Source of the DNA: Sandaracinobacter neustonicus
GTDB lineage: Bacteria > Pseudomonadota > Alphaproteobacteria > Sphingomonadales > Sphingomonadaceae
Assembly (NCBI RefSeq): GCF_006385875.1
Contig: NZ_VFSU01000031.1
Location: 36,506 to 100,505 of the forward strand
Length of the DNA: 64,000 nt
Direction of reading: 5' to 3'
The notes under the pieces: model-generated
What the model was told of the DNA's origin: nothing
Database searches by the model: none
The model's input: the letters and a program-made list of their open reading frames with translations, nothing else
Position numbers and translations under genes: made by a program
In this document: piece by piece, positions 4,371 to 64,000 of the stretch
Layout: each line of letters opens with the position of its first letter
Position numbering within the stretch: position 1 is the first letter of the stretch

Positions 4371-4790
4371 TGTGCCTCCGGCGGCCAAGGGCTTTGCCCT
4401 TGGAACCCGTGCCAAGGAAATGATTTCCCTGCACCCTCTAAGTTGGCGTTGCGCCCCAACCCCAACGCCGTTCGAGTGATCAGATTCGATTGCCTGCGGC
4501 GCACCGCAACTCTCCCCTCCTGTAAGGGGGAGAGTTGGAGAGGGGGTGTCACCGCCGGGCCTGACCAACCAACCTCATCCCACCCCCAACCTCGCCACCC
4601 GCTCAGCCTGAGTCCTGAGCTTGTCGAAGGGTCGAAGGCCCCTGAGAGACTCCCCAACCTTCCCACGCCCACAACCGTCACCCCGGACTTGATCCGGGGT
4701 CCAGCTGTTCTTCGGCAAGGCTGGAGTTGAAAAGCCAGACCCCGGATCAAGTCCGGGGTGACGGTGAAAAACCACCGCGGATAAAACAGA
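4371..4790. repeat. Mosaic intergenic repeat island (forward half plus palindromes)
   Basis: Occupies most of 4357-4879 between two convergent genes. Starts with CCTCCGGCGG, the hairpin CCAAGGGCTTTGCCCTTGG (4385-4403) and a second hairpin around AAATGATTTCCCTG. Then follow the core with GATTGCCTGCGGCGC (near 4490), the CT/GA hairpin, a CTCAGCCTGAG...TTGTCGAAG repeat (about 4601-4635), and two inverted copies of the CCCCGGA..TCCGGGG palindrome (about 4678-4705 and 4737-4762). The right-hand reverse end seen in other islands is missing. No gene is seen. Confidence 0.8.
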
Positions 4791-4821
4791 AACGCCCCAC
4801 CCGAACCCACAGCCCCCCAAC

Positions 4822-4856
4822 GAGAAAGGGCCCCCGGTTTCCCGGAAGCCCCTTCT
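4822..4856 (-). terminator. Probable terminator of the rpsF-rpsR-rplI operon
   Basis: Inverted repeat 23 bases beyond the rplI stop codon. On the minus strand it reads GAGAAGGGGC, then CCGG, a GAAA loop, CCGG, and GGGCCCTTTCTC, so the stem has small bulges. Only a short T stretch follows, so the terminator call is moderate. Confidence 0.5.
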
Positions 4857-4879
4857 CAAACCTCGCAAGGGCAGAACCC

Positions 4880-5476
4880 TTAGGCTTCGGTCGTTTCCTC
4901 GGCCGTGGCGTCGTCCTCGGGCAGGGTGCCCGGTTCGGCGCTGGCGTCGAATTCTTCCGTGAAGCCGGCTTCTTCCCGTTCGAACAGGTCGGCCGTCACG
5001 TCGACGCCCTTGGCCTGCAGTTCGGCTTCTTCCGGCGAACGGGCGACGTTCACCTTGGCGGAAACCGTCACTTCCGGGTGCAGCACCAGCTTCACCGTGG
5101 TGATGCCCAGCGTCTTGATCGGCTTGTCCAGCACCACGGCGCTCTTCAGCACCTTGTGGCCGGATTCGGTCACGGCATCCGCCACGTCGCGGGCGGAAAC
5201 CGAACCATACAGCGCACCGGCGTTCGAAGCCTGGCGGATCAGCACGACCGAAACCTCGGTCATGGTGGCGGCCTGCGCTTCGGCCGCTTCACGGCGCTTG
5301 GCGTTGTCGGCTTCGATCGTTGCGCGCTGCGCTTCGAACTTCGCCTTGTTGGCGTCTGTGGCGCGAAGCGCCTTGCCGCGCGGCAGCAGGAAGTTGCGCG
5401 CGAAGCCGGGCTTCACAGACACAACATCACCAATGCGGCCGAGCTTTTCGACGCGCTCAAGAAGGATCACATCCAT
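4880..5476 (-). CDS. rplI: 50S ribosomal protein L9 with an acidic C-terminal tail
   Basis: 198 residues; typical L9 is about 150. The N-terminal rRNA-binding domain (MDVILLERVEKLGRIGDVV, then KPGFARNFLLPRGKA) and the connecting helix are intact, and the C-terminal domain ends near residue 150. The extra 45-50 residues are acidic and rich in E, D, A and T. Third gene of rpsF-rpsR-rplI, 12 bases after rpsR. Such tails are familiar in alphaproteobacterial L9; its role is unknown to me. Confidence 0.97.
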   Translation of the reverse strand: MDVILLERVEKLGRIGDVVSVKPGFARNFLLPRGKALRATDANKAKFEAQRATIEADNAKRREAAEAQAATMTEVSVVLIRQASNAGALYGSVSARDVADAVTESGHKVLKSAVVLDKPIKTLGITTVKLVLHPEVTVSAKVNVARSPEEAELQAKGVDVTADLFEREEAGFTEEFDASAEPGTLPEDDATAEETTEA

Positions 5477-5488
5477 CGAATATGCTCC

Positions 5489-5713
5489 TTACTTCACGAG
5501 ATAGGGCAGCAGGCCGAGATGGCGTGCGCGCTTGATGGCTTGCGAAAGTTCGCGCTGCTTCTTGGCGGAAACCGCCGTGATGCGCGAAGGGACGATCTTG
5601 CCGCGTTCAGAGACGAAGCCCTGCAGCAGGCGGATATCCTTGTAATCGATCTTCGGCGCATTGTTGCCCGAAAAGGGGCAGCTCTTGCGGCGACGGAAAA
5701 ACGGGCGTGCCAT
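5489..5713 (-). CDS. rpsR: 30S ribosomal protein S18
   Basis: 74 residues, normal for S18. It binds the small-subunit platform as a partner of S6. Diagnostic segments are [12 protein letters not shown] near the start, [19 protein letters not shown] in the middle, and the C-terminal RNA-binding block [15 protein letters not shown]. It starts 3 bases after the rpsF stop codon and is followed closely by rplI, the standard gene order. Confidence 0.98.
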
Positions 5714-5716
5714 GGC

Positions 5717-6172
5717 TTACCAGGCTCCTTCTTCAACCCGGGGGGCACGGTCCGGGCGGGGGCCGCGATCGCCGCGATCTCCACGCGGGCCACGATCACC
5801 ACGATCGCCCCTGTCACCACGCTCACCACGTTCGCCGCGCTCGGCACGGTCAGACTTCTTCATCATCGCGGACGGGCCGGTTTCCAGCGCGTCGACACGG
5901 ATGGTCTGATAGCGGATCACGTCTTCGTTCAGCGAAACCTGACGCTCCAGCTCCTGAATCGCAGGCGCCGGGGCCTCGATGTTCAGCAGCACATAATGCG
6001 CCTTGCGGTTCTTCGCGATGCGATAGGCAATGGTGCGCAGGCCCCAATATTCGGTGCCCTTCACCTCACCACCCATGTCGGTGACAACCTTGGTAAACGC
6101 CTCTGTGAGGCTCTCCACCTGCGCAGGCGCCAGATCCTGACGCGCGAGGTAGACATGCTCGTAAAACGGCAT
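5717..6172 (-). CDS. rpsF: 30S ribosomal protein S6 with a Gly/Arg/Asp-rich tail
   Basis: 151 residues; the conserved S6 fold covers about residues 1-100 ([23 protein letters not shown], and [10 protein letters not shown]). Beyond it lies a low-complexity tail made largely of RGD, RGE and RGP triplets, probably disordered and able to contact RNA (inference). It leads the rpsF-rpsR-rplI operon. Its 5' region (6173-6250) has a small inverted repeat with arms CGCGG and CCGCG. An S6:S18 autoregulatory leader is known in many bacteria, but I cannot confirm that motif here. Confidence 0.97.
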
Positions 6173-6310
6173 GCGTGTCTCTCTTCCTCTGCCGATCGCT
6201 GACCTCGCGGCGAATTCCGCGCATGGCCCCTCCGGCTATCTTGAAGCGGCGGGCCATAGGGGAAAGTCGGCGGCGAGGCAAGGGCGGGGGCTGAGCGTGG
6301 GGCTTTTTTG

Positions 6311-6375
6311 CCTCCGGCGGGCAGGGAAATGATTTCCCTGCACCCTCAACATTGGCGTTGTGCGCCATCCGGTCA
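6311..6375. repeat. Short hairpin repeat (partial island unit)
   Basis: A truncated unit between rpsF and the orphan gene: CCTCCGGCGG, then a hairpin with arms GCAGGGAAAT and ATTTCCCTGC (6321-6341), then the ACCCTCAACATT and GCGTTG core start. The first hairpin of the usual pair is missing here. Confidence 0.75.
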
Positions 6376-6465
6376 AATGTACCATTGAACAGTGTTGATA
6401 GCCTGCAACGCTGACGGCTTGCCCTGATATTGATGTGACGAGAGCAAGGCGGACACTTTCAAACC

Positions 6466-6930
6466 TTATTTAAGAGAGTGTGTGATGTCCTCAACACGCT
6501 TGCAATGGTAAAGCGCTGTATGCGGCTCAGCAAATGCTGCGCTTTGAATGACTGCGTCCAGTGATTGCGCATGTATGCTGACCATGCGCCCGCTATCTAA
6601 AAATAGAATTACAGTTCCTCTGTATTCTTCTGGAGGATACCATAGGAGATTGAGAATTTTGCCGGAAGTTGGCTCACTTGATGCGGGTATTCCTTGAAAT
6701 TCTGAGCTATGGATGAATGTGTTTTTGTCAAAGTCGATCAAAATATTTCCTGTTATCCCTTCCGAAGTATCCGATTTCGTGCAGGAATTCCCGCGTTCGT
6801 TGCAATGCGTGGAGCTTCTGAAAGAGCATTTTAGTTTGAGATGATCTGTCCATTTCGCATCGGAAGATGCCAAGGTCGGCATGCCTGCCATAATTGCGAC
6901 ACTCGTGAATAGGATGTGGTCTGTCCGCAT
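6466..6930 (-). CDS. Orphan AT-rich protein, probably secreted
   Basis: 154 residues, function not recognised. The first 22 residues (MRTDHILFTSVAIMAGMPTLAS) look like a weak signal peptide. The mature part has four cysteines in its first third (CSF, HCNE, SCTK) and one near the end (YHCK), so disulfides are plausible. A segment SGKILNLLWYPPEEYRGTVILFLD looks like beta-strands. Base composition is clearly more AT-rich than the neighbours, as in recently acquired genes. It lies beside the parDE module. Confidence 0.6.
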   Translation of the reverse strand: MRTDHILFTSVAIMAGMPTLASSDAKWTDHLKLKCSFRSSTHCNERGNSCTKSDTSEGITGNILIDFDKNTFIHSSEFQGIPASSEPTSGKILNLLWYPPEEYRGTVILFLDSGRMVSIHAQSLDAVIQSAAFAEPHTALYHCKRVEDITHSLK

Positions 6931-6994
6931 TGTCAGATGACTCCTTGTTACTCAAAAGCCTATCGTTTCAGCGCGATACTCATATGATCAGAGT

Positions 6995-7291
6995 TCAGAA
7001 GGGGAACAGAATCGCGCTGTAGTTCCGCGCGCCGTGCAGGATGTGCAGAATCACGATCTTTCCGGGTTCGACGCGATAGAAAATCAGATAATCGCCATGG
7101 ATACGCCGCCGTACGCCGGATGCCTCATAGCGTGCAACGAGCGGGAATCGCTCGGGCATATCCGCCAGTTCCGTGCATTTAATCCGGAGGTCGTGCAGGA
7201 AGCTCAACGCGCGCTGCGGGTTGTCCTGCGCGATATAGTCTCCGATCGCCTCAAGATCATATTCGGCTTCGGCCGACAGATGGACGATCAT
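6995..7291 (-). CDS. parE: ParE/RelE-family toxin
   Basis: 98 residues, the normal length for the ParE/RelE superfamily. Typical signatures: a start like MIVHLSAEAEYDLEAIGDYIAQDNP, the middle ERFPLV, and the end VRRRIHGDYLIFYRVEPGKIVILHILHGARN. ParE toxins usually poison DNA gyrase and RelE toxins cut mRNA; the sequence alone does not settle which, but the ParE group fits better. Its ATG overlaps the antitoxin stop codon by 4 bases. Confidence 0.9.
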   Translation of the reverse strand: MIVHLSAEAEYDLEAIGDYIAQDNPQRALSFLHDLRIKCTELADMPERFPLVARYEASGVRRRIHGDYLIFYRVEPGKIVILHILHGARNYSAILFPF

Positions 7292-7545
7292 CTGTCAGGG
7301 GCGGCCATCGCACGATATTTTGCCTCCAGCCGATCAAACACGGTGTCCGCGGCGGCAGTTCGCCCGGCGTCGGCATCGGCCAGACCGCGCGTGATCGAGG
7401 CATCAAGCGCCGCCAAACGCGTTTCCCGATCCTGAATCAGTCGCACCCCTTCGCGGAGAACCTCGCTTTTCGAGTTGTAGCGGCCGGTCGACACAAGGCT
7501 GGCCACGAACTGCTCAAGCTGCTGCCCCAGATCTGCGCTAATCAT
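7288..7545 (-). CDS. parD: ParD-family antitoxin
   Basis: 85 residues from the ATG at 7545, which has AGGAG seven bases upstream; a TTG two codons earlier is rejected. The N-terminal half (MISADLGQQLEQFVASLVSTGRYNSKSEVLREGVRLIQDRE) is the ribbon-helix-helix DNA-binding fold of ParD/CopG proteins, and the C-terminal half is the toxin-binding tail. It should bind the toxin and repress its own promoter. Two palindromes lie just upstream. Confidence 0.92.
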   Translation of the reverse strand: MISADLGQQLEQFVASLVSTGRYNSKSEVLREGVRLIQDRETRLAALDASITRGLADADAGRTAAADTVFDRLEAKYRAMAAPDR

Positions 7546-7578
7546 CAGCAATCTCCTGCTGCCGCGACGGATAGTGCA

Positions 7579-7619
7579 TTATCAACAGTTGATAAAGACT
7601 GTCGCGCAAGTTCGCGACA
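7579..7619 (-). promoter_or_regulatory. Probable parDE operator
   Basis: Two perfect palindromes upstream of parD. TTATCAACAGTTGATAA (7579-7595) covers a GATAAT-like -10 element read on the minus strand. TGTCGCG...CGCGACA (7600-7619, six-base spacer) lies just beyond it. Ribbon-helix-helix antitoxins bind such sites to repress their own operon, so this is the expected operator. Confidence 0.65.
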
Positions 7620-7670
7620 TCATGCGGGCACGCAGCAGGCCGAAAGTCAGGGAAACCGGAGGAAATAGGG

Positions 7671-7718
7671 TGCAGGGAGCACGGCTCCCTGCCGGGGTGA
7701 AGGGGCAGAGCCCCTTCA
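7671..7718. repeat. Hairpin pair downstream of the glutamate dehydrogenase gene
   Basis: Reversed island end only. Arms GCAGGGAGC and GCTCCCTGC (loop ACG, 7672-7692) are followed by GAAGGGGCAGAGCCCCTTC (7699-7717), 20 bases from the gdh stop codon. Both stems differ in sequence from the copies at 24173 and 24153 yet stay complementary. Confidence 0.75.
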
Positions 7719-7737
7719 TTTACTCCCCCCAAACCCG

Positions 7738-10700
7738 TCAACCGATCAGCGCAGCCCTTGCCACTGTTGCCAGATGCGCCAGCATCGCCAGCGTCGGCGC
7801 GCCGGTGATGCGGGCGGCTTGTATGGTGCGGGCGATGGCGTCGGCCTGTGCTGCATGGGCTTTCAGCCAGCTGTTGGTTTCCGCCAGCGGGTCTCCGCCT
7901 TTGGGCGTCAGGCGGCCGATCAGGTCCAGTCGCATGGTTTCGAAGGCGCGGGCGGCTGTGGCTGCCAGCAGCCGTTCCCAGCTGTCGGCGGGGTGCAGGG
8001 CGCGGGTGGCACCGTGCGCCCAGTCGATCCCCAGCGCTTCGCCCAGCCTTGTGTAGGCTTCGGCCGTCTTGCCTTCGTCCAGTTCTAGGTCTGAGGCCAG
8101 CGCCACCACGCCTGCTGCGCCGGACAGCGCATTCAGCGTGGCGATCCAGTCCACCACATTCGCCGGGGCACCGGCCAGCGTGAGGCGCTGGCGCACGGCT
8201 TCCACCTGCGCGCGCGGTTCCGGGCGCAGCAGCTTGTCCAGCCGGGGCAGCAGTCGCTTCAGGCCGGGGGCGAGGCGGGCGGAGAGCCGCTCGGGGTTTT
8301 CCGCGCCGGTGCGCACGGCCAGATCGCCCACCAGCGCGCGGGTGAGGCCGGCGGCTTCGCCATGGAAGATCAGCGCTTGCGCTGCCGGCACCTCTGCGGC
8401 GTCGATGGCGGCCCACAGGCTTTCCAGATCGAACAGGGTCCGCGCGGAGACGAAAGCGGCGGCGATGGTGGACAGCGGCAGCCCCAGTTCAGCCGACAGG
8501 TCATGCGCCAGCGTCAGCCCGCCGCGATTCACCAGCAAGTTGGCGAGCTTGGTGGCGATGATCTGGCGGCGCAGCTGGTGGCCGCGGATTTCGGCCTCGT
8601 AAGGGCCGCGCATCATCGGCGGGAAGGCGCGGAACAGATCCTCTTCCAGCAGCAGGTCGGTCACCAGATCGGATTCGACCAGCGCGTCTTTCAGCTCCAT
8701 CTTGGTGTAAGACAGCAGCACGGCCAGTTCCGGCCGCGTCAGGCCCCGGCCCAGCCGCTTGCGCTCTTCGATGTCGCGCGGGCCGGGCAGACCTTCCACC
8801 TGCCGGTCCAGCCGGCCGGAGGCTTCCAGCATTTCCATCAGCCGCACATGCGCCTGCAGCCGCTCGCGGGCGTTGGCTTCCACCACGGAGAGGATCAGCG
8901 TCTGCGCCGAATTGTTGGAGAGCACGAGGGCCGCCACTTCGTCCGTCATCTCGGCCAGCAGCGTGTCGCGCGCGTCCTCCGTCAGCCGCCCGGCGCGGGT
9001 GGCCGCGCCCAGCGCGATCTTGATGTTCACTTCATGGTCGGAAGTGTCGACGCCCGCCGAATTGTCGATGAAGTCGGTGTTCAGACGCCCGCCATGGCTG
9101 GCGAACTCGATGCGCCCGGCCTGTGTGACGCCAAGGTTCGCACCTTCGCCGATCACCTTCGCGCGCACATCCTGCCCGTTCACCCGCTGCGCGTCGTTGG
9201 CGCGGTCCCCAACGTCGCCGTTCGATTCAGACGTCGCCTTGATATAGGTGCCGATGCCGCCGAACCACATCAGGTCCACCGGGGCCTTCAGGATCGCCGT
9301 CATCAGTTCGGCCGGGGCCAGCGCTTCGGCGTCGATATTCAGCAGCGCGCGCACTTCGGCCGACAGCGGGATCGATTTCTGGCTGCGCGGGAACACCCCG
9401 CCGCCATTGGAAATCAGCTTCGCGTCATAATCGGCCCAGCTGGAGCGCGGCAGCGCGAACAGCCGGGCGCGTTCGGCCCAGCTGGCGGCAGGGTCCGGCG
9501 CGGGATCAAGGAAGATGTGGCGGTGATCGAACGCCGCCACCAATTTCAGGCTTTTCGACAGCAGCATGCCGTTGCCGAACACGTCGCCGGACATATCGCC
9601 CACGCCCGCCACGGTGACGGGATCGGCCTGCACGTCCACGCCCATTTCGGCGAAGTGGCGGGTCACGGAAACCCATGCCCCGCGCGCGGTGATGCCCATC
9701 GCCTTGTGATCGTAACCGACGGAGCCGCCGCTGGCGAAGGCGTCGCCCAGCCAGAAGCCCGCCTCCAGCGCGAGGCCGTTGGCGGTGTCTGAGAAGGTGG
9801 CCGTGCCCTTGTCTGCCGCGACCACCAGATAGGGGTCGTCCGCATCCAGTCGCTTCACATGATGCGGCGGTACCACCTTGCCTTCGGCATCCAGATTGTC
9901 GGTGATGGAGAGCAGGGTGCGGATGAACAGCTTATAGGCTTCAAGGCCCTCCGCCGCCCATGCGTCGCGGTTGGCGGCGGGATCGGGCAGCTGCTTGGGG
10001 AAGAAACCGCCCTTCGCGCCGGTGGGCACGATCACGCTGTTCTTCACCATCTGCGCCTTCACAAGGCCCAGCACTTCGGTGCGGAAATCGTCGCGCCGGT
10101 CAGACCAGCGGAGCCCGCCTCGCGCGATAGGGCCGCCGCGCAGGTGGATGCCTTCCACGCGCGGGCTATACACCCAGATTTCGCGCCAGGGCAGCGGCTT
10201 GGGCAGGCCCGGCACGCGCGCCGATTCCAGCTTGAAGGCCAGCGCGGCAGGCCCGCCGGGGACGAAGGCATTGGTGCGCAGCATCGCCTGCACCAGCCCC
10301 AGGAACAGCCGCAGGATGCGGTCGTCGTCGATCGCCTGCACGGCGTCCAGCGTTTCGCGGAAGCGTTCGCTCGCGGCTTCGGCGGCCTTTTTCGTGCCGT
10401 CCGGCGCGTGGTGCGCGCGGAACAGCGCGATCAGCGCCAGCGTGGCGGGCTTGTTGCGCTTCAGCACGTCCACCACGGTCTGCAACGAATAGGCGCTGCC
10501 CGTCTGCCGCAGGTAACGGAACCATGCGCGCAACCAGTTGGCCTCCTCCGCCGTCAGCCCGCAGGCCGGGATCAGCGCGTTGAAGCCGTCATTTTCCTGC
10601 GTGCCTGTCAGCACCGCGTCGAGCGCCGGGTTCACTACCTGACAGAAGGGCGGCAGTTCGGCGGCGGGCACATTGGCTTCCAGCGTGAAATCGTGGATCC

Positions 10701-13407: not shown

Positions 13408-13410
13408 TTG

Positions 13411-14250: not shown

Positions 14251-14257
14251 GAGGGGC

Positions 14258-16890: not shown

Positions 16891-17608
16891 GCCTCCGGCG
16901 GCCCGGGCGCTGCCCGGGACCCGGCAGGGGCGTGACGCCGCTCGCGCGCCCCCAGTTTTTTTGGCGATTGTATCTTTTGCAAACCGAAATCGCCTGCCTG
17001 TCTTCCGTTCCGCTCAGGCTGAGCTTGTCGAAGCCCCGGACGTGAATGCTCAACGGCTGAGCAGGTCGGGGGTCGCCCCATGGGGCTTCGACAAGCTCAG
17101 CCTGAGCGGGGGAAGAGGGTAGCAGCAAAAGCCGAAAAGTCGGCGGGTTTGCAAAGGATAGAATCGCCGTTTTTTAGCCCCTCCCCTGCAGGGGAGGGGT
17201 TGGGGTGGGGGCCATCCGCTTGGCGCGAGGTTGGGGATTTAGTGCCTGCGGCGTTTCAGGGCGTGCACCACCTACCCCTCCACCCGTCGCCCCGGACTTG
17301 ATCCGGGGGTGGCGGTTGTGGGTGTGGGGAGCGTGGTGGGTTCCTCAGGGGGCCTTCGACCCTTCGACAAGCTCAGGACTCAGGCTGAGCGGGTGGGGCG
17401 GTTGGTGGATCAGGCCCGGCGTGGACACCCCCTCTCCAACTCTCCCCCTTGCAGGGGGAGAGAGCCGCGTTGCGCCGCAGGCAATCAAAGTTGATCACTC
17501 ACACGGCGTTGGAATTAGGCCACCCCGCCAACTTAGAGGGTGCAGGGAAATCATTTCCCTGCCGGGTGCAGGGCAGAGCCCTGCTTGGCCTGTCCCGGAC
17601 CCGGAGGC
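16891..17608. repeat. Large mosaic repeat island with hairpin pairs at both ends
   Basis: Fills the 755-base space between convergent amidase and scpA. Left end: CCTCCGGCGG, hairpin CCCGGGCGCTGCCCGGG (16902-16918), then GCAGGGGCG...CGCC. Middle: a roughly 100-base inverted-repeat element (17011-17108), the GGGG/CCCC-rich module (about 17178-17236), a CCCCGGACTTGATCCGGGG palindrome (17284-17308) and a TTCGACAAGCTCAGG repeat. Right end: reverse CT/GA hairpin, reversed core GCGCCGCAGGCAATC (about 17475), arms GCAGGGAAAT/ATTTCCCTGC (17542-17562), a GGGCAGAGCCC hairpin and a reversed outer box, 22 bases from the scpA stop. Confidence 0.85.
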
Positions 17609-24141: not shown

Positions 24142-24559
24142 GCCTCCGGCGGCCGGGCTCTGCCCGGACCCGGCAGGGAAATGATTTCCCTGCACCCTCA
24201 ACATTTGCGTTGTGCGCAAACACCAACGCCGTGCGGGTCATCAGATTCCATTGCCTGCGGCGCAACATGACTCTCTCTCCCCGTTGGGGAGAGAGCTGGA
24301 GAGAGGGGAGCAACGCCGGGTATGGCCCACCAGCCTCCCCACCCGCTCAGCCTGAGCTTGTCGAAGGCCCCGGAAAACCCGCACCCTCCCCCCACCCGCA
24401 ACCGTCTCACCCCGAACTTGATCCGGGGCAACGTGTAGAGAAGCGGGTGGACCACTCCCCGAAAGGCGCCGCAGGCAATCAAACCACCCGCCATCCCAAC
24501 CCATCCGATGAACCTATTAATGTGGGTGCAGGGAGCACGGCTCCCTGCCCGCCGGAGGC
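24142..24559. repeat. Mosaic repeat island between convergent genes
   Basis: Fills most of 24123-24602. Left end: CCTCCGGCGG, hairpin CCGGGCTCTGCCCGG (24153-24167), arms GCAGGGAAAT/ATTTCCCTGC (24173-24193), a GCGTTG..CAACGC hairpin, the core, and a CT/GA hairpin whose stem is a variant (CTCTCTCCCC/GGGGAGAGAG). Middle: CTCAGCCTGAGCTTGTCGAAG (about 24345-24366) and a CCGAACTTGATCCGGGG copy. Right end: GCGCCGCAGGCAATC (about 24468), arms GCAGGGAGC/GCTCCCTGC (24528-24548) and the reversed box CCGCCGGAGG. Confidence 0.85.
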
Positions 24560-27759: not shown

Positions 27760-28000
27760 CCCCTCACCCCAACCCCTCCCCTGGAAGCGAAGCTGACGCG
27801 AGCGTCAACGGGAGGGGCTTTAAGGTGTTGGGGGTGCAGGGGAATCATTTCCCTGCCGGGGGAGTTTGAGGGGGCGGAGCCTCCTCAACTCTGAGGTTGG
27901 CGGGGAGAAGCTGGACCCCGGATCAAGTCCGGGGTGACGGTTGTGGGGAGGTTTGTGGGTTTGCTCAGGGGCCTTCGACAGGCTCAGGCTGAGCGGGTGG
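27760..28000. repeat. Partial mosaic repeat modules
   Basis: Part of the 472-base gene-free stretch 27613-28084. It holds the CCCCAACCCCTCCCC...GGGAGGGGCT module, here with an inserted GCGAAGCTGACGCGAGCGTC stretch (about 27788-27807), a hairpin with arms GCAGGGGAAT/ATTTCCCTGC (about 27837-27856), the GGACCCCGGATCAAGTCCGG palindrome (about 27911-27938), and a CCTTCGACAGGCTCAGGCTG copy (27972-27991). Outside these I see nothing. Confidence 0.7.
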
Positions 28001-35179: not shown

Positions 35180-36138
35180 AGGTCCAGCCTGTCCGGGCCG
35201 AGCATCCGGCTGTCCTGCAAGCGCCATCTGCCATGGGTTTCCGCGAGATCGGCGGGGTACAACCCTTCCAGCCCGATGCCCGCGCCGATCAGGATGGGGG
35301 CGCGCAGGATCGCCAGCCGGTCCACCCGGCCCGCCGCCAGCAGCGTGGCGGCAAGACCACCGCCGCCTTCGCACAGGATGCGGTTCAGTTGCCTCTCCGC
35401 CACCAGCGCATCCAGCGCGGCGAGCGAGGGCAAGGCGATGAAGCCATCGGGCACCGGGCCAGTGGTGAGCGCGGCGCGCAGCGGTTGCGGCGCGCTGCCG
35501 CCGGGCAGGCGGGCGGTGAGTTGCGGCGCGTCCGCGCGGAGCGTGCCGCCGCCGACCAGCACGAGATCGGATTCGGCCCTGAGCGCGTGGGCGTAGGCGC
35601 GGGCCGGTTCGCTTGTGATCCATTGGCTGCGGCCGTCTGCCATGGCGAGGCGGCCGTCCAGCGAGAGCGCCAGTTTCAGGGTGAGCTCTGCGCCCCGGCC
35701 CGCCAGCCGCTTGCTGAAGCCGCGCAATTCGGCTTGGGCTTCCGCCGCCAGCACGCCGGTGGTGGTTTCGATGCCTGCCGCCCGCAGCAGGGCGAGCCCC
35801 TTGCCCGCCGTGCGTGGGTCCGGATCCTGCATCGCCACCACGCAGCGGGCGATCCCGGCGGCCACAAGGCTGTCCGCGCAAGCCGCGCCGCGCGGGGAGA
35901 GGTGAGCGCAAGGTTCCAGCGTGACATAGGCGGTGGCCCCGCGCGCGGCCGTGCCCGCCTGCTGCAGCGCCATGGCCTCCGCGTGCGGGCGGCCGCCGTC
36001 CTGCGTCCAGCCCCGGCCGATGACGCGGTTGTTGTGGATGATCAGGCAGCCGACGTTTGGGTTGGCGGCTGTGCGGCCGCGTCCTCGTTTGGCGAGGGTG
36101 AGCGCGGCGGCCATCCATTGTTGGTCGGTTGGGGTCAT
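35134..36138 (-). CDS. ribD: Bifunctional riboflavin deaminase/reductase
   Basis: 334 residues. The N-terminal deaminase (about residues 5-145) has the zinc motif HAEAMAL and PCAHLSPRGAACADSL. The C-terminal reductase (about 150-330) starts LKLALSLDGRLAMADGRSQWIT and has LVLVGGGTLRADAP and ILCEGGGGLAATLL. It performs steps two and three of riboflavin synthesis. Ends in a Ser-rich stretch that overlaps the opposite-strand membrane gene. No FMN riboswitch was recognised upstream. Confidence 0.95.
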   Translation of the reverse strand: MTPTDQQWMAAALTLAKRGRGRTAANPNVGCLIIHNNRVIGRGWTQDGGRPHAEAMALQQAGTAARGATAYVTLEPCAHLSPRGAACADSLVAAGIARCVVAMQDPDPRTAGKGLALLRAAGIETTTGVLAAEAQAELRGFSKRLAGRGAELTLKLALSLDGRLAMADGRSQWITSEPARAYAHALRAESDLVLVGGGTLRADAPQLTARLPGGSAPQPLRAALTTGPVPDGFIALPSLAALDALVAERQLNRILCEGGGGLAATLLAAGRVDRLAILRAPILIGAGIGLEGLYPADLAETHGRWRLQDSRMLGPDRLDLYASSSSSNAAATRP

Positions 36139-36155
36139 GTTCGGGCGTTGGGGTT

Positions 36156-36537
36156 GAGGGGGCTTTGCCCCCTCAAGCTCCCCCAGCAGGGAACTATGTT
36201 CCCTGCACCCTCATTTGTTGGGTGAGCGAATGGGGTGTGCCGGGGGATTGGGTGATTGCCTGCGGCGCTTTGGGGGGTGTTTTGCCGGTTTTTCCGCTCG
36301 TCAGCCCGGACTTGGTCTGGGGTGGCGGGTGGGAGGTGTTTGCGTTGTGGATCAGGCCCGGAGGTGACACCCCCTCTCCATCTCTCCCCCTTGCAGGGGG
36401 AGAGGGCTGCGGTGCGCCGCAGGCAATTGAATCTGGTCATCCAAACGGCGTTGGAGTTGGTGCGCGACACCAATTTTGAGGGTGCAGAGAAATCATTTCC
36501 CTGCCGGGTGCAGGGCAGAGCCCTGCCCGCCGGAGGC
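36156..36537. repeat. Mosaic repeat island with a distinct hairpin variant
   Basis: Fills most of 36139-36580. Left end: hairpin GAGGGGGCTTTGCCCCCTC (36156-36174) and arms GCAGGGAAC/GTTCCCTGC (36186-36206), a stem combination found nowhere else here. Then GATTGCCTGCGGCGC (about 36255-36269), a degenerate CCCGGACTTGGTCTGGGG palindrome, the reverse CT/GA hairpin, the reversed core, arms GCAGAGAAAT/ATTTCCCTGC (36484-36504) with one mismatch, GCAGGGCAGAGCCCTGC and the reversed outer box. Confidence 0.82.
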
Positions 36538-36580
36538 AAAAACACCTGCCCGCTCTCCCCCCAAGCGGGCCGGACGGGCA

Positions 36581-37042
36581 TCAACTGCTCGCTTGCTGTG
36601 CGGCGGCGCGTTCGGCTTCCAGCGCTTTTTGCCGGGCTTGCTGGGCTTCGTAGGCGCGGCGGTTGGCTTCCACTTGCGCGCGCAGCTTGTCCATGGCGGC
36701 TTCGCGTTCGGAGATGGCGTCTTCCGAGGTTCGCTGTCCGCTCCAGCTTTCGAAATAGACGATGCGGTCCGGCACTTCGATGCCGCTGTCCATGGCGATG
36801 AGGAAGCTGCCGACGATGAGCGCGCCCATGGCGAGCGCGCCGACGCCGAAGACGGTTTTGTAGAGCGGTTGTTCGCGCCAGCGGGCGATCAGGCCCTGTT
36901 GCGGCATGTTCCAGCTGAAGCCTTCGGCTTCGTCCAGCTCGCGCTTCATCAGCACGGCGCGGCGGCGCGCGTCGTCATCCTCCGACGCGTGCTGGTCGGC
37001 GAAGGGTTGCGGCATTTTGACGGCTTTGGGCTTTTTCAGCAT
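36581..37042 (-). CDS. Single-pass membrane protein with a coiled-coil tail
   Basis: 153 residues, function not recognised. A cytoplasmic N-terminal part (residues 1-60; charged, then GFSWNMPQQGLIARWREQP) leads to one membrane helix (about 62-83, TVFGVGALAMGALIVGSFLIAM). After EVPDRIVYFESWSGQRTSEDA comes a C-terminal coiled coil rich in A, E, R and Q (about 110-150). The gene lies 26 bases downstream of dnaN on the same strand and may share its transcript. Confidence 0.78.
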   Translation of the reverse strand: MLKKPKAVKMPQPFADQHASEDDDARRRAVLMKRELDEAEGFSWNMPQQGLIARWREQPLYKTVFGVGALAMGALIVGSFLIAMDSGIEVPDRIVYFESWSGQRTSEDAISEREAAMDKLRAQVEANRRAYEAQQARQKALEAERAAAQQASS

Positions 37043-39102: not shown

Positions 39103-39465
39103 GCCTCCGGCGGCTCGGGCGCTGCCCGAGACCCGGCAGGAGCGTGACGCCCCTGCACCCCCGAGCTTTTTAGCCCCTCCTCCTTTAGGGGAGGGGTTGG
39201 GGTGGGGGCTGTCCGCCTAGCGCGAGGTTGGGGTTATGGCCTGCGGCGCTTCCGTTGCACTTGTTGTGAAGACAGTGGATCAGGCCAACCGCTGACACCC
39301 CCTCTCCAACTCTCCCCCTTGCAGGGGGAGAGAGTCACGCAGCGCCGCAGGCAATCGAATCTGATCACTCACACGACGTTGGAATTGGGGCGCAACGCCA
39401 ACTTAGAGGGTGCAGGGAAATCATTTCCCTGCCGGGTGCAGGGCAGAGCCCTGCCCGCCGGAGGC
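39103..39465. repeat. Complete compact mosaic repeat island
   Basis: Fills most of 39078-39476 between convergent genes and is the clearest complete copy. Left: CCTCCGGCGG, CTCGGGCGCTGCCCGAG (39114-39130), arms GCAGGAGCG/CGCCCCTGC. Then the CCCCTCC...GGGGAGGGG module (about 39173-39200), GCCTGCGGCGC (about 39240-39250), the reverse CT/GA hairpin (about 39306-39331), GCGCCGCAGGCAATCGAATC (about 39341), a GCGTTG-type hairpin (GTTGG..GCAACGCC), arms GCAGGGAAAT/ATTTCCCTGC (39412-39432), GCAGGGCAGAGCCCTGC, and the reversed outer box. It ends 12 bases from the rppH stop. Confidence 0.87.
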
Positions 39466-42734: not shown

Positions 42735-42790
42735 GGTGCCTGTGTAGGCGCTGCGGGGCCGGGGCACAAAGGTGGATTTTTTGGGGGGGC

Positions 42791-42838
42791 GAGTGGCGTC
42801 ACGCCCCTGCCGGGTTCCAAGGGCAGAGCCCTTGGCCT
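42791..42838. repeat. Isolated hairpin pair (reversed unit)
   Basis: Two hairpins in the 119-base gap between moaA and the DUF885 gene. The first has the right arm CGCCCCTGC with loop TCA and an imperfect left arm; the second is CCAAGGGCAGAGCCCTTGG (42817-42835). The pair lies 15 bases from the DUF885 gene stop codon, the usual position next to a stop. Confidence 0.7.
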
Positions 42839-51218: not shown

Positions 51219-51673
51219 ACCAAGGGCTCTGCCCTTGGAACCCGGCAGGGAGCTGTGCTCCCTACACCCACATTTGTAGGTCTTTCGGATAGGGTTGGTT
51301 TGCGGTTGGTTTGATTGCCTGCGGCGCTTTGGGGCGGTGTGACGTTATCATTTCCCGCTCAGGCTGAGCTTGTCGAAGCCCCCGGAGCGAAGCTGCGGCG
51401 GCCGAGCCGGGGGTCATGCCACATGGGGCTTCGACAAGCTCAGCCTGAGCGGATAGAGAGCGGGTTGGGGTGTGGGGATGTTGTGGATCAGGCCTACCGG
51501 TGACACCCCCTCTCCTACTCTCCCCCTTACAGGGGGAGAGAGTTGCGGTGCGCCGCAGGCAATCGAATCTGATCACTCGAACGGCGTTGGGGTTGGGGCG
51601 CAACGCAAACTTAGAGGGTGCAGGGAAATCATTTCCCTGCCGGGTGCAGGGCAGAGCCCTGCCCGCCGGAGGC
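51219..51673. repeat. Mosaic repeat island with an inverted-repeat element
   Basis: Fills most of 51193-51740. Left: hairpin CCAAGGGCTCTGCCCTTGG (51220-51238), arms GCAGGGAGC/GCTCCCTAC (51245-51265, last base mismatched), GATTGCCTGCGGCGC (about 51313-51327), the roughly 100-base inverted-repeat element (51356-51451), reverse CT/GA hairpin (about 51516-51542), reversed core, arms GCAGGGAAAT/ATTTCCCTGC (51620-51640), GCAGGGCAGAGCCCTGC and the reversed outer box. Its right end abuts the start of a plus-strand gene, not a stop codon. Confidence 0.84.
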
Positions 51674-56694: not shown

Positions 56695-56696
56695 GG

Positions 56697-57125: not shown

Positions 57126-57287
57126 ACCGAGCCTCCGTGCGGAATATGGCTGAAGGTTGATACGGGCGATGACGTTACATCAGTTGTGCGCCCATATCAT
57201 CCCGCCCGTCGATCTGGCGGCGATCAAAGCGCAACGAAGGGCTGCCGGTCTTTCGAGCGGCGGCCTCTCCCTGCAGGCGGACGGCGA

Positions 57288-57962: not shown

Positions 57963-58155
57963 GCGATGTCCCCTGTTCCGAACGCAGCGACTCTGCCGAT
58001 GCGGCAGCCGCCTGCCGGAGCGATTGCACGCCGATGTTGCACCGCCTTGACAGCGGCATCGTCAGCGGTGTTCGCGCAAACATGGTTGCACCATCGCTTC
58101 GCCTCGGGCACCGGGGCGCGCAATCCTTATCCCCCAGTTCCAGCGAGTCCCCCTC

Positions 58156-59730: not shown

Positions 59731-59758
59731 GCGCGGGTTCGCGTTTGGGGGCGTGTTC

Positions 59759-60252
59759 GAAGGGGCTCTGCCCCTTCACCCCGGCAGGGAAATGATTTCC
59801 CTGCACCCTCAATATTTGCGTTGCGCCTGAACTCCAGCGCCGTGCGGGTGATCGGATTCGATTGCCTGCGGCGCTACGTGGCCCTCCCCCCCTGCAAGGG
59901 GGAGAGATGGAGAGGGGGTGTCACCGCCGGGCCTGATGCGCTCCATCCCCACACCCCCCCAGCCCACTCTCAAACCCGCTCAGGCTGAGCTTGTCGAAGC
60001 CCCCGAAGCGAAGGCTCAATGGTTGAGGTCGTGGGTCATGCCGCATGGGGCTTCGACAAGCTCAGCCTGAGCGGGGGGAGGGATTAAGGGGGCTCACCAA
60101 AGCGCCGCAGGCAATCAAACCCCAACCACGCGCCAAGCGGATGGCCCCCACCCCAACCCCTCCCCTAAAGGAGGAGGGGCTTAAGAATGTCGGGGGTGCG
60201 AGCGGCGTCACGCCCCTGCCGGGTGCCGGGCAGAGCCCGGCCCGCCGGAGGC
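59759..60252. repeat. Complete mosaic repeat island
   Basis: Fills most of 59731-60380. Left: GAAGGGGCTCTGCCCCTTC (59759-59777), arms GCAGGGAAAT/ATTTCCCTGC (59784-59804), GCGTTG-type hairpin, GATTGCCTGCGGCGC (about 59861-59875), CT/GA hairpin, then the inverted-repeat element (59977-60073), GCGCCGCAGGCAATC (about 60102-60116), the CCCCAACCCCTCCCC...GGAGGAGGGGCT module (about 60150-60181), imperfect arms with CGCCCCTGC, CCGGGCAGAGCCCGG, and the reversed outer box. The right end is 128 bases upstream of a plus-strand gene. Confidence 0.87.
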
Positions 60253-60380
60253 CTCCAACACCTCCGGCCGGAGCACCCAACGCTGCACGAACAGCCCACC
60301 CTCCCAAGTTTGGGGATTAAGGCCGGGCGGGTCCGCGCATAGGCAGGCTACCAAACCGTTTTGCGAGAAGGGACAGATTC

Positions 60381-61163
60381 ATGGACATCAAGGGATTGTC
60401 GGCGGTGATTACGGGCGGCGCGTCCGGGCTGGGTGCGGCGACGGCGCGGCGGCTGGCGGCGGAGGGCGTGAAGGTTGCGCTGTTCGATCTGAACGCGGAG
60501 AAGGGCGAGGCGCTGGCGGCCGAGCTGGGCGGCGTATTCTGCCAGGTGAATGTGACGGATGACGCGTCGGTCGATGCCGGTTTCGCCAAGGCGCGTGCTG
60601 CCAACGGGCAGGAGCGGATTCTGGTGAACTGCGCGGGCACCGGCAACGCCATCAAGACGGCGAGCCGCGCCAAGGACTCCGGCGAAATCAAGCATTTCCC
60701 GCTGGATGCCTTCAACATGATCATCCAGATCAACCTTGTCGGCACCTTCCGCTGCATCGCCAAGTCGGCGGCGGGCATAATGACGTTGCCGCCCATCGGT
60801 GAGTATGGCGAGCGTGGCGCAATCGTGAACACGGCGAGCGTCGCCGCCGAAGACGGCCAGATCGGGCAGGCTGCCTACTCCGCTTCGAAGGGCGGGGTTG
60901 TGGGCATGACGCTGCCGATCGCGCGCGACCTTTCCAGCGAAGGCATCCGGGTGAACACGATTCTGCCGGGCATTTTCAACACCCCGCTGCTGGCGGCCGC
61001 GCCGGATAATGTGAAGGCGGCGCTGGCGGCTTCGGTTCCCTATCCGAAGCGCCTTGGCAATCCGGAGGAATATGCGAGCCTTGCGCTGGAGATGATCCGG
61101 AATTCCTACTTTAACGGTGAGGATGTGCGGATTGATGGGTCCATTCGGATGGCACCGCGCTGA
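60381..61163 (+). CDS. Short-chain dehydrogenase (3-hydroxyacyl-CoA dehydrogenase type)
   Basis: 260 residues, classical SDR. Rossmann motif TGGASGLGAATARRL near residues 11-25, the NAG-like NCAGTGNA near residue 88, and the active site Ser-Tyr-Lys (NTASVAA, then Tyr166 and Lys170 in YSASKGG). It resembles the type II 3-hydroxyacyl-CoA dehydrogenase / 17-beta-HSD10 group in length and in PGIFNTPLL. Substrate not settled. A strong terminator follows. Confidence 0.9.
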   Translation: MDIKGLSAVITGGASGLGAATARRLAAEGVKVALFDLNAEKGEALAAELGGVFCQVNVTDDASVDAGFAKARAANGQERILVNCAGTGNAIKTASRAKDSGEIKHFPLDAFNMIIQINLVGTFRCIAKSAAGIMTLPPIGEYGERGAIVNTASVAAEDGQIGQAAYSASKGGVVGMTLPIARDLSSEGIRVNTILPGIFNTPLLAAAPDNVKAALAASVPYPKRLGNPEEYASLALEMIRNSYFNGEDVRIDGSIRMAPR

Positions 61164-61175
61164 AGCCGGCTGCGA

Positions 61176-61246
61176 TTAGCGCGAAGCGCTAACTCGCAGA
61201 CTCGGCGAAAGCACGGCCGGCTGAGCGGGCGATCTCTATCGCCCGC
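61176..61246 (+). repeat. Hairpin cluster downstream of the dehydrogenase
   Basis: Two perfect hairpins: TTAGCGC/GCGCTAA with loop GAA (61176-61192), and GCGGGCGAT/ATCGCCCGC with loop CTCT (61225-61246). AGCCGGC (about 61165-61171) can pair with GCCGGCT (about 61216-61222) around the first. The group looks like a branched RNA structure in the 3' tail. Confidence 0.55.
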
Positions 61247-61256
61247 CAGTCCGACG

Positions 61257-61280
61257 AGTCCCGGCTTTGCCGGGACTTTT
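61257..61280 (+). terminator. Rho-independent terminator of the dehydrogenase gene
   Basis: Perfect 9-base stem AGTCCCGGC/GCCGGGACT with loop TTT (61257-61277), followed by TTT and then GCTTTCTG. The best intrinsic terminator in the window. Confidence 0.8.
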
Positions 61281-61351
61281 GCTTTCTGTCTTCCTTCCTT
61301 CCTTAACCTCAACCGGACTCGGCGGCTTAGCCGCCGGCCGGTCCCCCGCTT

Positions 61352-61654
61352 TCACCCCAAACTCACCCCAACCATCCCATCAATCGCCTTCGCCATCCGC
61401 ACATCCCGCGCGCTCAATCCGTCCGCGTCATGCGTGGTCAGCGCGATGTCCACCCGGTTCCACACGTTGAACCATTCCGGGTGATGCTCCTGCTGCTCGG
61501 CCAGCAGCGCCACCCGCGCCATGAATCCGAACGCTTCGGAAAAATCCCGGAAGCGGAACGTGCGCTTCAGATGCTCGCCCTCCAGCGCCCATTCCGGCAG
61601 CGCTGCGCCCAGTTCCGCGCGCGCCGCCGCGTCCAGCTTCTCGACCTTCGCCAT
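61352..61654 (-). CDS. phhB: 4a-hydroxytetrahydrobiopterin dehydratase
   Basis: 100 residues, the usual length. PCD/DCoH family: [70 protein letters not shown] includes the EHHPEW and HDADGLS signatures with the catalytic histidines. It regenerates the pterin cofactor of phenylalanine hydroxylase, or serves other pterin recycling. No phhA is in the window. The gap to the divergent zincin is 21 bases. Confidence 0.94.
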
Positions 61655-61675
61655 CCCTCACCCTATCTCTGCTGC

Positions 61676-62068
61676 ATGTTTCGCCATGCCCCCTCTCTCG
61701 CCGACATCGAAGCCCTCGCGCAAGCCGCCGTGGAGCGCCTGCCAGAGCTGTTCCGCAGCCATCTCGGCAACGTCATCCTGAAAGTGCAGGATTTTCCGGA
61801 CGAAGATGTGATTCAGGCCATGGGGCTGGAGAGCGAGTGGGACATATTGGGCCTCTATTGGGGCCATCATGTCGGCAATCCCGGCGCGGAGTATAGCGGC
61901 GCGCTGCCCCCCACCATCTATCTCTATCGCCGCCCGATGCTGGACGAATGGGCGCACGGGCAAGACACACTGGCCGCGCTGGTGACGCATGTGCTGGTGC
62001 ATGAAGTGGGCCATCATTTCGGCCTGTCTGACGATGATATGCACGCAATCGAAGCCTCGCTGGACTAG
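61676..62068 (+). CDS. Small zinc metallopeptidase (Zincin_1 family)
   Basis: 130 residues from the ATG at 61676. The motif HEVGHHFGLSD gives HExxHxxGxxD, with His109, Glu110, His113 and Asp119 (the third ligand may be Asp119). The segment YRRPMLDEWAHGQDTLAALVTHVLVHEVGHHFGLSDDDMHAIE is the typical C-terminal block of the family. A cytoplasmic, MMP-like zincin of unknown target. It starts 21 bases from phhB on the opposite strand. Confidence 0.9.
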   Translation: MFRHAPSLADIEALAQAAVERLPELFRSHLGNVILKVQDFPDEDVIQAMGLESEWDILGLYWGHHVGNPGAEYSGALPPTIYLYRRPMLDEWAHGQDTLAALVTHVLVHEVGHHFGLSDDDMHAIEASLD

Positions 62069-62119
62069 ATGCGCCCGCCCCTTTAGCGTCCCCTGAACAG
62101 ACATTCAGGGAGTTCGCGC

Positions 62120-63454
62120 ATGAAGGGACTGATTTCGGCCATCCTGTTGACGGCATCCGCCTCGGCGATGGCGGCGGACGTGACGCCCGCCGATCTGGAA
62201 AAGGCCGTCGCGCAGGATTGGTCCACTTACCTCGCGCCGCTCTACGATCATTTCCACCGCAACCCCGAACTCTCCGCCGTGGAGGTGAACACCGCCGCCC
62301 GCATGGCGAAGGAACTGCGTGCGGTGAAGGGCATGGAGGTCACGGAAAAGGTCGGCGGCACCGGAGTCGTCGGCGTGCTGAAGAACGGCCCCGGCCCCGT
62401 CATCCTGCTCCGCGCGGATATGGACGGCCTGCCGGTTGAAGAAAAATCCGGCCTCGCCAACGCGTCCAAGGTCCGCCAGAAAGACCGCAGCGGGGTGGAG
62501 CAGCCGGTGATGCACGCCTGTGGCCATGACACGCATATCACCGGCCTCGTCGCCACCGCCCGCCAGTTGGCGGCGCTGAAAGACAAATGGTCCGGCACGG
62601 TGATCTTCGTCGCCCAACCCGCCGAGGAAATCGTCGGCGGCGCGAAGAAGATGATGGCCGACAATCTCTACCAGCGCTTCGGCAAGCCCGATTACGCCAT
62701 CGGCTGGCACGTCGCTTCGGCGCTCCCCACCGGCACCATCGGCCTCGCCGAAGGCGTCACCTATTCCGCGGCGGATACCGTGGACATCGTCGTCCCCGGC
62801 ATCGGCGCGCACGGGGCCAGCCCGCAAAGCGGCAAGGATCCGATCTTCATCGCATCCGACATCGTGCAATCGCTGCAAGGCTTCATCGGCCGGGAAATCG
62901 CCCCGCTGAAACCCGCCGTCATCACCGTCGGTGCCTTCCACGCCGGGTCCAAACACAACATCATCTCGGACAAGGCTGAACTGTCCGTTACCGTCCGCGC
63001 GGACGATCTGGAAACCCGCAACAAGCTGATCGACGGCATCAAGCGCATCTCCGTGCAAACGGGGCGCAAATGGGGCCTGCCCGAAGACAAGCTGCCCATC
63101 GTCACCGTCCGCGAAGACGAACGCGCCATCCCCAACATCAACGACACCGAACTCACGCGCCGCCTGCACGCGCTTTACGCCAAGGCCTATGGCGACAAAA
63201 TCTTCACCACCGTCACGCGAGACAGCATGGGCGCGGAAGACTTCCCCTACCTCGTCGGCCCGGGCGTGAAAGGCGTCTATTACAACGTCGGCGGCACCCC
63301 GCAGGCGGCGCTGGACGCCGCCAAGGCGGGCGGGCCGCCGGTTCCCAGCCACCACTCGCCGCTGTTCAAAGTGGACGGCGAAGCAGCCGTGAAACTGGGC
63401 GCGCAGACGATGACGCTGGCCGTGCTGGATCTGGCGGCCAAGCCGGGGAGTTAA
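62120..63454 (+). CDS. M20-family amidohydrolase with signal peptide
   Basis: 444 residues. Signal peptide (residues 1-18, cleavage after AMA). M20 metallopeptidase layout: RADMDGLPV, HACGHDTHITGLVATA, FVAQPAEE (catalytic and metal residues), a dimerisation domain (about 215-325; GIGAHGASPQSGKDPI), and a C-terminal metal-binding SMGAEDF. Close to hippurate/aminoacyl hydrolases. Predicted to work in the periplasm on acylated amino acids. Fifty-one bases after the zincin gene. Confidence 0.92.
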   Translation: MKGLISAILLTASASAMAADVTPADLEKAVAQDWSTYLAPLYDHFHRNPELSAVEVNTAARMAKELRAVKGMEVTEKVGGTGVVGVLKNGPGPVILLRADMDGLPVEEKSGLANASKVRQKDRSGVEQPVMHACGHDTHITGLVATARQLAALKDKWSGTVIFVAQPAEEIVGGAKKMMADNLYQRFGKPDYAIGWHVASALPTGTIGLAEGVTYSAADTVDIVVPGIGAHGASPQSGKDPIFIASDIVQSLQGFIGREIAPLKPAVITVGAFHAGSKHNIISDKAELSVTVRADDLETRNKLIDGIKRISVQTGRKWGLPEDKLPIVTVREDERAIPNINDTELTRRLHALYAKAYGDKIFTTVTRDSMGAEDFPYLVGPGVKGVYYNVGGTPQAALDAAKAGGPPVPSHHSPLFKVDGEAAVKLGAQTMTLAVLDLAAKPGS

Positions 63455-63490
63455 GGGGGGCTTTAGGGGCTGTAACGAGGCGGTTTTTTT

Positions 63491-64000
63491 GCCTCCGGCG
63501 GCCAAGGGCTTTGCCCTTGGAACCCGTGCCAAGGAAATGATTTCCCTGCACCCTCAACATTAGCGTTGTGCCCGAACTCCCAACGCCGTGCGGGTGATCA
63601 ACCTTGATTGCCTGCGGCGCACCGAAGCCCTCTCCCCCTGTAAGGGGGAGAGATGGAGAGGGGGTGTCACCGGTTGGCCTGATCCGCCAGCGTCCCCACA
63701 CCCCCACCCACAAACCCACCGCCGCCCCAACCCACTCTCCAACCCGCTCAGGCTGAGCTTGTCGAAGCCCCCGAAGCAAAAGCGCAACGGCTAAGCTCGC
63801 AGTCATGCCACATGGGGCTTCGACAAGCTCAGCCTGAGCGGGGGGAGGGGTAATGGGAGACTGCCCCAAAGCGCCGCAGGCAATAACTTCCAACCTAGCG
63901 CCAAGCGGATAGCCCCCACCCCAACCCCTCCCCTACAGGGGAGGGGCTCAGAAAAAGTTCGGGGGTGCAGGGGCGTCACGCCCCTGCCGGGTGGTGGGCA
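63491..64000. repeat. Mosaic repeat island reaching the window end
   Basis: Fills 63455-64000 after the M20 gene. Left: CCTCCGGCGG, CCAAGGGCTTTGCCCTTGG (63502-63520), a damaged AAAT/ATTT hairpin, GCGTTG..CAACGC hairpin, core GATTGCCTGCGGCGC (about 63606-63620), CT/GA hairpin, then the inverted-repeat element (63745-63840), GCGCCGCAGGCAAT (about 63872), the CCCCTCCCC..GGGGAGGGG module (about 63925-63949), and a perfect reversed hairpin with arms GCAGGGGCG/CGCCCCTGC (63967-63987). No gene is seen. Confidence 0.85.

Follow-up and report, generated by a model that had tools for sequence, protein, structure and literature searches.

Several families of repetitive extragenic palindromic (REP) sequences are close to the element described here. 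CGTC-REPs of alphaproteobacteria are described, in the parts of PMC3733652 that deal with them, as short palindromes found mostly as head-to-head dimers, at gene 3′ ends and in convergent gaps, often with two unlike stems and with no association to a transposase gene. The same passages find no obvious explanation for the preference for heterodimers, suggest protection from removal of long hairpins, and leave open what moves REPs that lack a transposase. For GTAG-REPs and REP doublets forming hairpins (REPINs), which go with a REP-associated tyrosine transposase (RAYT), portions of PMC3116915 and PMC8266576 name the inverted doublet as the likely mobile unit, and stems of related types differ yet stay palindromic. 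Mosaic intergenic repeats, among them bacterial interspersed mosaic elements (BIMEs; the name also appears in PMC2817692), string palindromic modules together into composites between genes. In this study, a stretch of 64,000 nucleotides from Sandaracinobacter neustonicus (assembly GCF_006385875.1, contig NZ_VFSU01000031.1, positions 36,506 to 100,505, forward strand; hereafter the window) was analysed with the rest of its genome, a 3.65-Mb draft of 34 contigs that is 99.42% complete (G000), and with relatives. We consider it probable that the paired hairpins recurring between its genes are the inverted ends of a CCTCCGGCGG-tagged REP/REPIN-like family of likely non-autonomous mobile DNA, with stems kept paired through recognition of single-stranded DNA.

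All the likenesses named above recur in this family: the placement at gene 3′ ends and in convergent gaps, dimers often of two unlike stems, inverted doublets whose related stems differ yet stay palindromic, and composite strings of palindromic modules. The end unit also agrees with the general description of a REP as a high-copy, mainly intergenic palindrome of 20-40 bp. Unlike CGTC-REPs, it carries a tag of 10 nt (CCTCCGGCGG), ACCC borders and a pair of hairpins at each end, and the dimer is far longer, with nested repeats. The GTAG or CGTC tag that marks the REP superfamilies is absent from the end unit, which starts with CCTCCGGCGG and has ACCC after each hairpin. It differs from REPIN/GTAG-REP systems in lacking a GTAG tag and a Y1 match and in its spacer, which is hundreds of bases long and contains other repeats, and from BIMEs, with their alternating REPs, in that modules are nested symmetrically about a centre and the ends fall into distinct types A, B and C. 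The family is a new variant on the REP theme, for which we infer the reason for pairing, the enzyme and the mechanism of mobility. No paper describing the unit was found in literature searches; for the 10-mer these covered part of the matching papers, at the level of title and start of abstract.

The unit consists of CCTCCGGCGG, hairpin 1 (hp1), ACCCG, hairpin 2 (hp2) and ACCC. A covariance model was built from 39 distinct 57-nt units, representing 98 aligned units; 56 of 154 pattern units were left out as not of the 57-nt class, and the tag common to the 39 is selected, since they were picked by it. With this model 21 units at 14 sites were detected in the window (E <= 0.002), while 8 more matches (E 0.03-0.07) were single palindromic arms read on the opposite strand. 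A mechanical scan (stem of at least 7, loop of 3) gave 39 hairpins in 10,921 non-coding bases; intergenic segments held 34, against a mean of 1.06 and a maximum of 4 in 50 dinucleotide shuffles. The original prediction had listed hairpins with matching arms and three-base loops, and all of them are present, although the stem at 330, written there as CCGGGC, is really the 7-bp GCCGGGC at 329-345. Two adjacent hairpins are not found in every unit: those at 6311 and 24524 have a single hairpin, and the one at 63963-63997 is incomplete because the window stops there. The borders named in the prediction, CCTCCGGCGG and ACCCTC, hold in part, since the exact CCTCCGGCGG occurs in 13 of the 21 units and ACCCTC follows one of three end types, with ACCCCC or ACCCAC after the others. 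The sites are as follows, with covariance-model scores in bits.

298..355, minus strand: end unit of type B with a GCCGGGC stem and the imperfect ...CGCCGCTCGC hp2; 65.4 bits; the dimer extends past the window start, with inner repeats at 50, 71, 153 and 260
4375..4436, plus strand: end unit of type A with a CCAAGGGC stem and the GTGCCAAGG hp2 variant; 47.7 bits; stop codon 18 nt before, inner repeats on to about 4758
6311..6345, plus strand: single-hairpin unit GCAGGGAAATGATTTCCCTGC; 35.5 bits
7668..7717, minus strand: headless unit with stems GAAGGGGC and GCAGGGAGC; 39.3 bits
16892..17588, no single strand: dimer region in a convergent gap, with units at 16892-16949 (plus, 48.5 bits) and 17538-17588 (minus, 61.1 bits) and inner repeats
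24143..24558, no single strand: whole dimer, with units at 24143-24197 (plus, CCGGGC, type A, 75 bits) and 24524-24558 (minus, single hairpin, GCAGGGAGC, type C, 30.2 bits)
27832..27896, minus strand: degenerate unit amid inner repeats; 31.8 bits
32159..32215, minus strand: end unit of type A with GCAGGGC; 87.4 bits; ribH stop 36 nt before, inner repeats from 31930
36147..36536, no single strand: whole dimer in the gap between a 153-aa gene and ribD, with units at 36480-36536 (minus) and 36147-36210 (plus, GAGGGGGC/GCAGGGAAC); 83.2 and 33.6 bits; absent from congeners
39104..39464, no single strand: whole dimer, with units at 39104-39160 (plus, CTCGGGC, type B, 77.8 bits) and 39408-39464 (minus, GCAGGGC, type A, 87.4 bits)
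42785..42834, minus strand: headless unit with a CCAAGGGC stem between same-strand genes; 27.3 bits
51221..51672, no single strand: whole dimer, with units at 51221-51269 (plus, headless, CCAAGGGC, 37.9 bits) and 51616-51672 (minus, GCAGGGC, type A, 87.4 bits)
59759..60251, no single strand: whole dimer, with units at 59759-59808 (plus, headless, GAAGGGGC, 44.7 bits) and 60194-60251 (minus, GCCGGGC, type B, 65.4 bits)
63492..63997, no single strand: dimer truncated by the window end, with units at 63492-63553 (plus, CCAAGGGC, 47.7 bits) and 63963-63997 (minus, GCAGGGGCG, 33.5 bits)

In the whole genome the covariance model detected at least 149 units (E <= 0.01; 150 candidates scored), and 106 were found by exact pattern. 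At the same threshold five congeners held 54 (G001), 99 (G002, Sandaracinobacteroides sayramensis RS1-74), 27 (G003), 9 (G004) and 2 (G005) units. TTGCCTCCGGCGG occurs 110 times in the own genome, 21 times in G170, which belongs to another family, and 0-4 times in the rest of 385 genomes. A search of 72,556 plasmid records with a whole dimer as query returned one record, a 52-base match at 85.5%.

Most units form the outer ends of dimers that are arranged head to head and measure about 320-570 bp, a feature missed by the original prediction, as was the presence or absence of these larger inverted elements between species. A strict search found 23 dimers in the own genome and a wider parser 31. 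Two REPs in inverted arrangement, as in a REPIN, are thus seen in 23 or 31 own pairs, depending on the search, and in 14 in the genome G008. The two ends of one dimer are mostly unlike. In the own genome hp2 differed between the ends of 29 of 31 dimers (random re-pairing, mean 22.0; 3 of 5000 reached 29), and hp1 in 16 of 16, with one misparsed row (L049) left out. The ends also differed in 13 of 14 dimers of G008, one of them by a single base, and hp2 in one of two dimers of G001. These comparisons cover non-independent events, as dimers may be inherited as A/B units. The difference between the ends of a dimer explains a large part of the variety of stems. Following the suggestion in PMC3733652, we suppose that two identical ends would anneal as a single long and unstable hairpin, a structure that unlike ends would avoid; such avoidance would favour stems that are new yet self-paired. 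The family thus offers a naturally varied series for the question, raised in the relevant part of PMC3733652, why REP dimers prefer unlike partners, and bears equally on what moves REPs without a transposase.

For the genome-wide comparison, 111 own units were kept from 172 candidate places (61 lay inside genes or had no hairpin). They comprise 74 ends of type A, 32 of type B, 4 of type C and one unassigned. Perfect 7-bp hp1 stems fall into eight types across three species, connected by single-pair steps; each of these few types is common to many copies and tends to occur with one of the end types A and B. All of them share the head, the ACCC borders, the register and the inner pairs. Stems GCAGGGC, CCGGGC, CCAAGGGC and GGCGGGC are common to G000 and G001, CTCGGGC and GGAGGGC to G000 and G002, and hp2 GCAGGGAAAT to all three genomes; stem types that occur in more than one species are perfectly paired.

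The covariation of the stems was analysed in the 39 distinct units. The claim that both arms change together was borne out: 8 of 16 pairs had a double-sided change, and 98.6% of 624 stem cells were paired, with 95 double-sided changes, 4 wobbles and 9 broken pairs. In column shuffles 83.4% were paired (0 of 500 reached the observed value), and 41-50% when partners were slid by 1-3 columns. The covariation score was 0.389 compared to 0.125 in shuffles (0 of 500 as high), and further pair types numbered 17 compared to 14.5 (12 of 500 as high). All four Watson-Crick pairs occur at hp2 columns 40/46 and 41/45. Kinship alone may beat every shuffle, and since the cells tally copies rather than events, there are about as many independent changes as there are stem types. 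Across 288 hairpins (2,294 pairs; 20 of 308 left out for odd length or more than two non-pairs) 264 were perfect, and the deviations were G.T 5, A.C 4 and other 15. The strong covariation is real and is most simply maintained at the DNA level. Covariation is commonly taken to demonstrate a functional RNA. In this family it accompanies REP-like DNA dimer ends that carry no RNA wobble signature, and screens for new RNAs should take this as a warning.

The repeats inside the dimer are nested, beginning with GATTGCCTGCGGCGC and its inverted copy, followed by a CTCTCCCCC hairpin, then a CTGAGCTTGTCGAAG repeat and lastly a CGTC-ACCCCGGA-CTTGA-TCCGGGGT-CCA repeat. The last (E4; about 4676-4703 in the window) fits the CGTC-REP class as delineated in part of PMC3733652, with its tag, 8-bp stem, 5-nt loop and CCA tail; 130 matches to its core were counted in the own genome, and 15 of 189 other genomes of the class have some, while the reversed control gave 0. 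Hardly any copies of GATTGCCTGCGGCGC lie outside the genus (148 in G000, 33 in G002, 14 in G001, 0-1 elsewhere). Bare doublets of GATTGCCTGCGGCGC-N12-inverse are seen in G002 (C1:530770-530811, C9:29751-29792, C14:4047-4088), which suggests that the inner layer is itself an independent repeat. When two whole dimers (24143 and 36147) were folded as single strands with RNA parameters, the inner GATTGCCTGCGGCGC pair closed an element-wide helix (z -6.4 and -7.6, respectively) and part of the CCTCCGGCGG tag was paired; the outer heads also paired in the 24143 dimer.

In the own genome 95 of 111 units come after a same-strand gene, at a median of 28 nt past the stop codon and with 67 within 50 nt, which matches the REP pattern reported in sections of PMC3733652. 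The window served as an unselected stretch for gap counts. Five of its eight convergent gaps hold an element, and the other three measure 7, 2 and -46 bp; thus all five convergent gaps above 10 bp are occupied, one of the five depending on a weak 48-aa gene call. Elements lie in 4 of 36 tandem gaps (7 with headless covariance-model matches included) and in 0 of 9 divergent gaps. A preference of this kind is expected if insertions are tolerated in places that lack a promoter, and alone is no proof of function. Whole dimers also occupy gaps of the tandem kind (L032, L037) and of the divergent kind (L050).

The anatomy, copy number and pairing described above were observed directly, as was the presence or absence of dimers. 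The gap between the 153-aa gene and ribD (36138-36581) measures 442 bp with its dimer in the own genome, compared to 7 bp in G002, 28 bp in G003, -4 bp in G001 and about 16 bp in G004, the last extrapolated from a 37% match. Similarly, the L049 gap is 624 bp in the own genome and 28 bp in G004. Ten own sites could be compared, and at five the relative had no units; the relatives fetched were partly picked for carrying units, and two spurious head-like matches (window 49540, L038) were left out of 9 own-only comparisons. At a shared site (L084) the stem types of the two relatives are different ones, which either a fresh insertion or a replacement could have produced. Transposition would be the cause of these differences. 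A putative enzyme would recognise the hairpin on a single DNA strand and so keep the stems paired; for TnpA-REP group 3, a portion of PMC8266576 reports that a perfect stem is needed and that a mismatch lowers or abolishes cleavage. A search of the own genome with the Y1_Tnp/RAYT profile (PF01797) gave no match at E <= 0.001, where 5 of 14 control genomes were positive; as the genome is a draft, a gene in contig gaps could escape it. There was also no match in G002, G003, G004, G008 or G170, and hence no RAYT cognate to the doublets was found. A weak single match was obtained in each of G001 and G025, and 13 of 59 genomes, mostly unit-free ones, had matches.

Four other explanations can be set against mobile dimers recognised as DNA. 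If the hairpins protected or ended transcripts at mRNA 3′ ends, their stems would covary as structured RNA, and the position of the units after stop codons and their folding (z -3.6 relative to shuffles) agree with this. The orientation, however, stems from dimers in convergent gaps and is not independent evidence, and whole dimers also stand between tandem and divergent genes. Were RNA from one strand under selection, G.U should be tolerated more than A.C, yet the two are equally frequent, although the counts are small, so that RNA pairing, offered as a cause by the original prediction, is unsupported. On neither strand does any of 110 units have five or more T in the 10 nt past the hairpins, so these do not act as intrinsic terminators, and the window had no Rfam match at gathering score. 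With no support for an RNA role in these data, we regard it as unlikely. A loss of the enzyme, in which a classical REP was spread by a RAYT since lost from the own genome, is improbable to a like extent. The REP-like architecture and the weak Y1 matches in G001 and G025 speak for it, but the unit-rich G000, G002 and G008 are without Y1, the RAYT-bearing G033 and G057 are without units, and the tag is neither GTAG nor CGTC.

Replication template switching, which copies one arm to the other and mends or rewrites a stem in one step, is a somewhat stronger candidate, though still a doubtful one. It is described to create and maintain hairpins (PMC8794818, in part). It would suit the excess of double over one-sided changes (95 to 4) and the arrival of hp2 changes as blocks of adjacent pairs (AAA, ACA, GCG, GAA, GTT, AGC). 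Flipped loops, its expected by-product according to a part of PMC8604942, were seen in 2 of 85 own hp2 and in no hp1, which leaves the inversion between arms that had been proposed weakly supported. Moreover, two imperfect subfamilies stay unmended, and head-to-head dimers, copy number and empty sites would be unexplained. The least probable, and in our view very unlikely, is the insertion of separate palindromes, with covariation reflecting only differences between families. That hp1 types follow end type A or B and are few and shared, so that cells over-count events, is in its favour. The head, borders, register and inner pairs common to all types oppose it, and the single-pair steps joining the perfect stems fit descent of one unit.

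Mobile dimers with DNA-level pairing remain the probable reading; several observations weigh against it. At the other five of the ten comparable sites units occur in the relative too. Miniature inverted-repeat transposable elements (MITEs) have terminal inverted repeats together with a target-site duplication; inverted termini CCTCCGGCGG...CCGCCGGAGG were seen on dimers, and no target duplication was recognised at the one junction compared by eye. Without a Y1/RAYT match in the own genome, G002 or G008 no enzyme is shown. In G002, hp1 differs between the ends of one of seven dimers, by a point change, both ends having otherwise the same hp1, and hp2 differs in just 5 of 7, which 1,683 of 5000 re-pairings reach. 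Two imperfect subfamilies have multiplied too, which opposes strict selection for perfect pairing: the type B ...CGCCGCTCGC hp2, with a mismatch and a bulge in a changed 3′ arm (9 of 100 own units; in the window at 298-355, 16892-16949 and 60194-60251), and the hp2 variant GTGCCAAGG (6 of 100). In favour of the reading, hairpins vary little between copies and linkers vary much: in 53 A ends in one register the mean pairwise difference was 1.6% in the inner core, 28-30% in the linker between and 2.3% in hp2. The last value is biased low, as these ends had been selected for an hp2 with at most one mismatch; in an E2-anchored set of 78, which has register slips, it was 18% in hp2 and 34% in the linker.

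A bolder form of the proposal is only tentatively put forward: that CCTCCGGCGG-tagged units are a third REP superfamily multiplying without Y1, that ends must differ yet self-pair, this rule rather than RNA driving stem changes, and that hairpin modules are kept alike independently of the linkers. Compared by hp1 type, the linker showed a small association, with 0.326 within and 0.343 between types (p 0.04 for 0-50, p 0.06 for 64-124); the relation was not significant in the cleaner set of 53 A ends (p 0.14 and 0.13), where hp2 correlated weakly with the second half of the linker (r 0.21, p 0.02). RNAalifold and mutual information placed none of 45 listed pairs of these 53 ends within the linker, the strongest signals lying in the inner CTCTCCCC module with its two subfamilies, and no codon-position pattern was visible by eye in the A linker.

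A native terminator upstream of the head was considered and rejected: in 44 units with a T-run the 35 nt upstream folded at -9.50 compared to -9.48 when shuffled. In 67 units without a T-run the fold was slightly better (-9.09 compared to -8.67, sd 0.18).

The spread within the own genome (contigs C11, C24, C31) is uneven, with 10 listed places in the 64-kb window, at least 1 in the 480-kb contig C11, to which the covariance model adds at least one more, and at least 2 in the 290-kb C24. In the four G170 units read (L178-L181), the head shared with this family is followed by another covarying hairpin (CCAAAGGGCTTGCCCTTTGG, CCAAAGGACTTGTCCTTTGG). The 14 parsed dimers of G008 are compact (60-80 bp, e.g. 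L171 2954-3022 and L189 3005-3073), and many start 2-12 nt past a stop codon, often as TAAGRG-CCTCCGGCGG. In G001 (L158, L163, L169) and G002 (L148, L149) a small palindromic insert breaks hp1 and is followed by a second hp1, as might happen if a further repeat had inserted into hp1 and duplicated an arm. At L045 (5242-8213) the inner repeats of a dimer enclose a cargo of about 2.7 kb, comprising a helix-turn-helix regulator (capH profile, E 1.5e-4) and an IrrE-like peptidase, PF06114 (capP profile, E 3.6e-14), both profiles being those of defence regulators.

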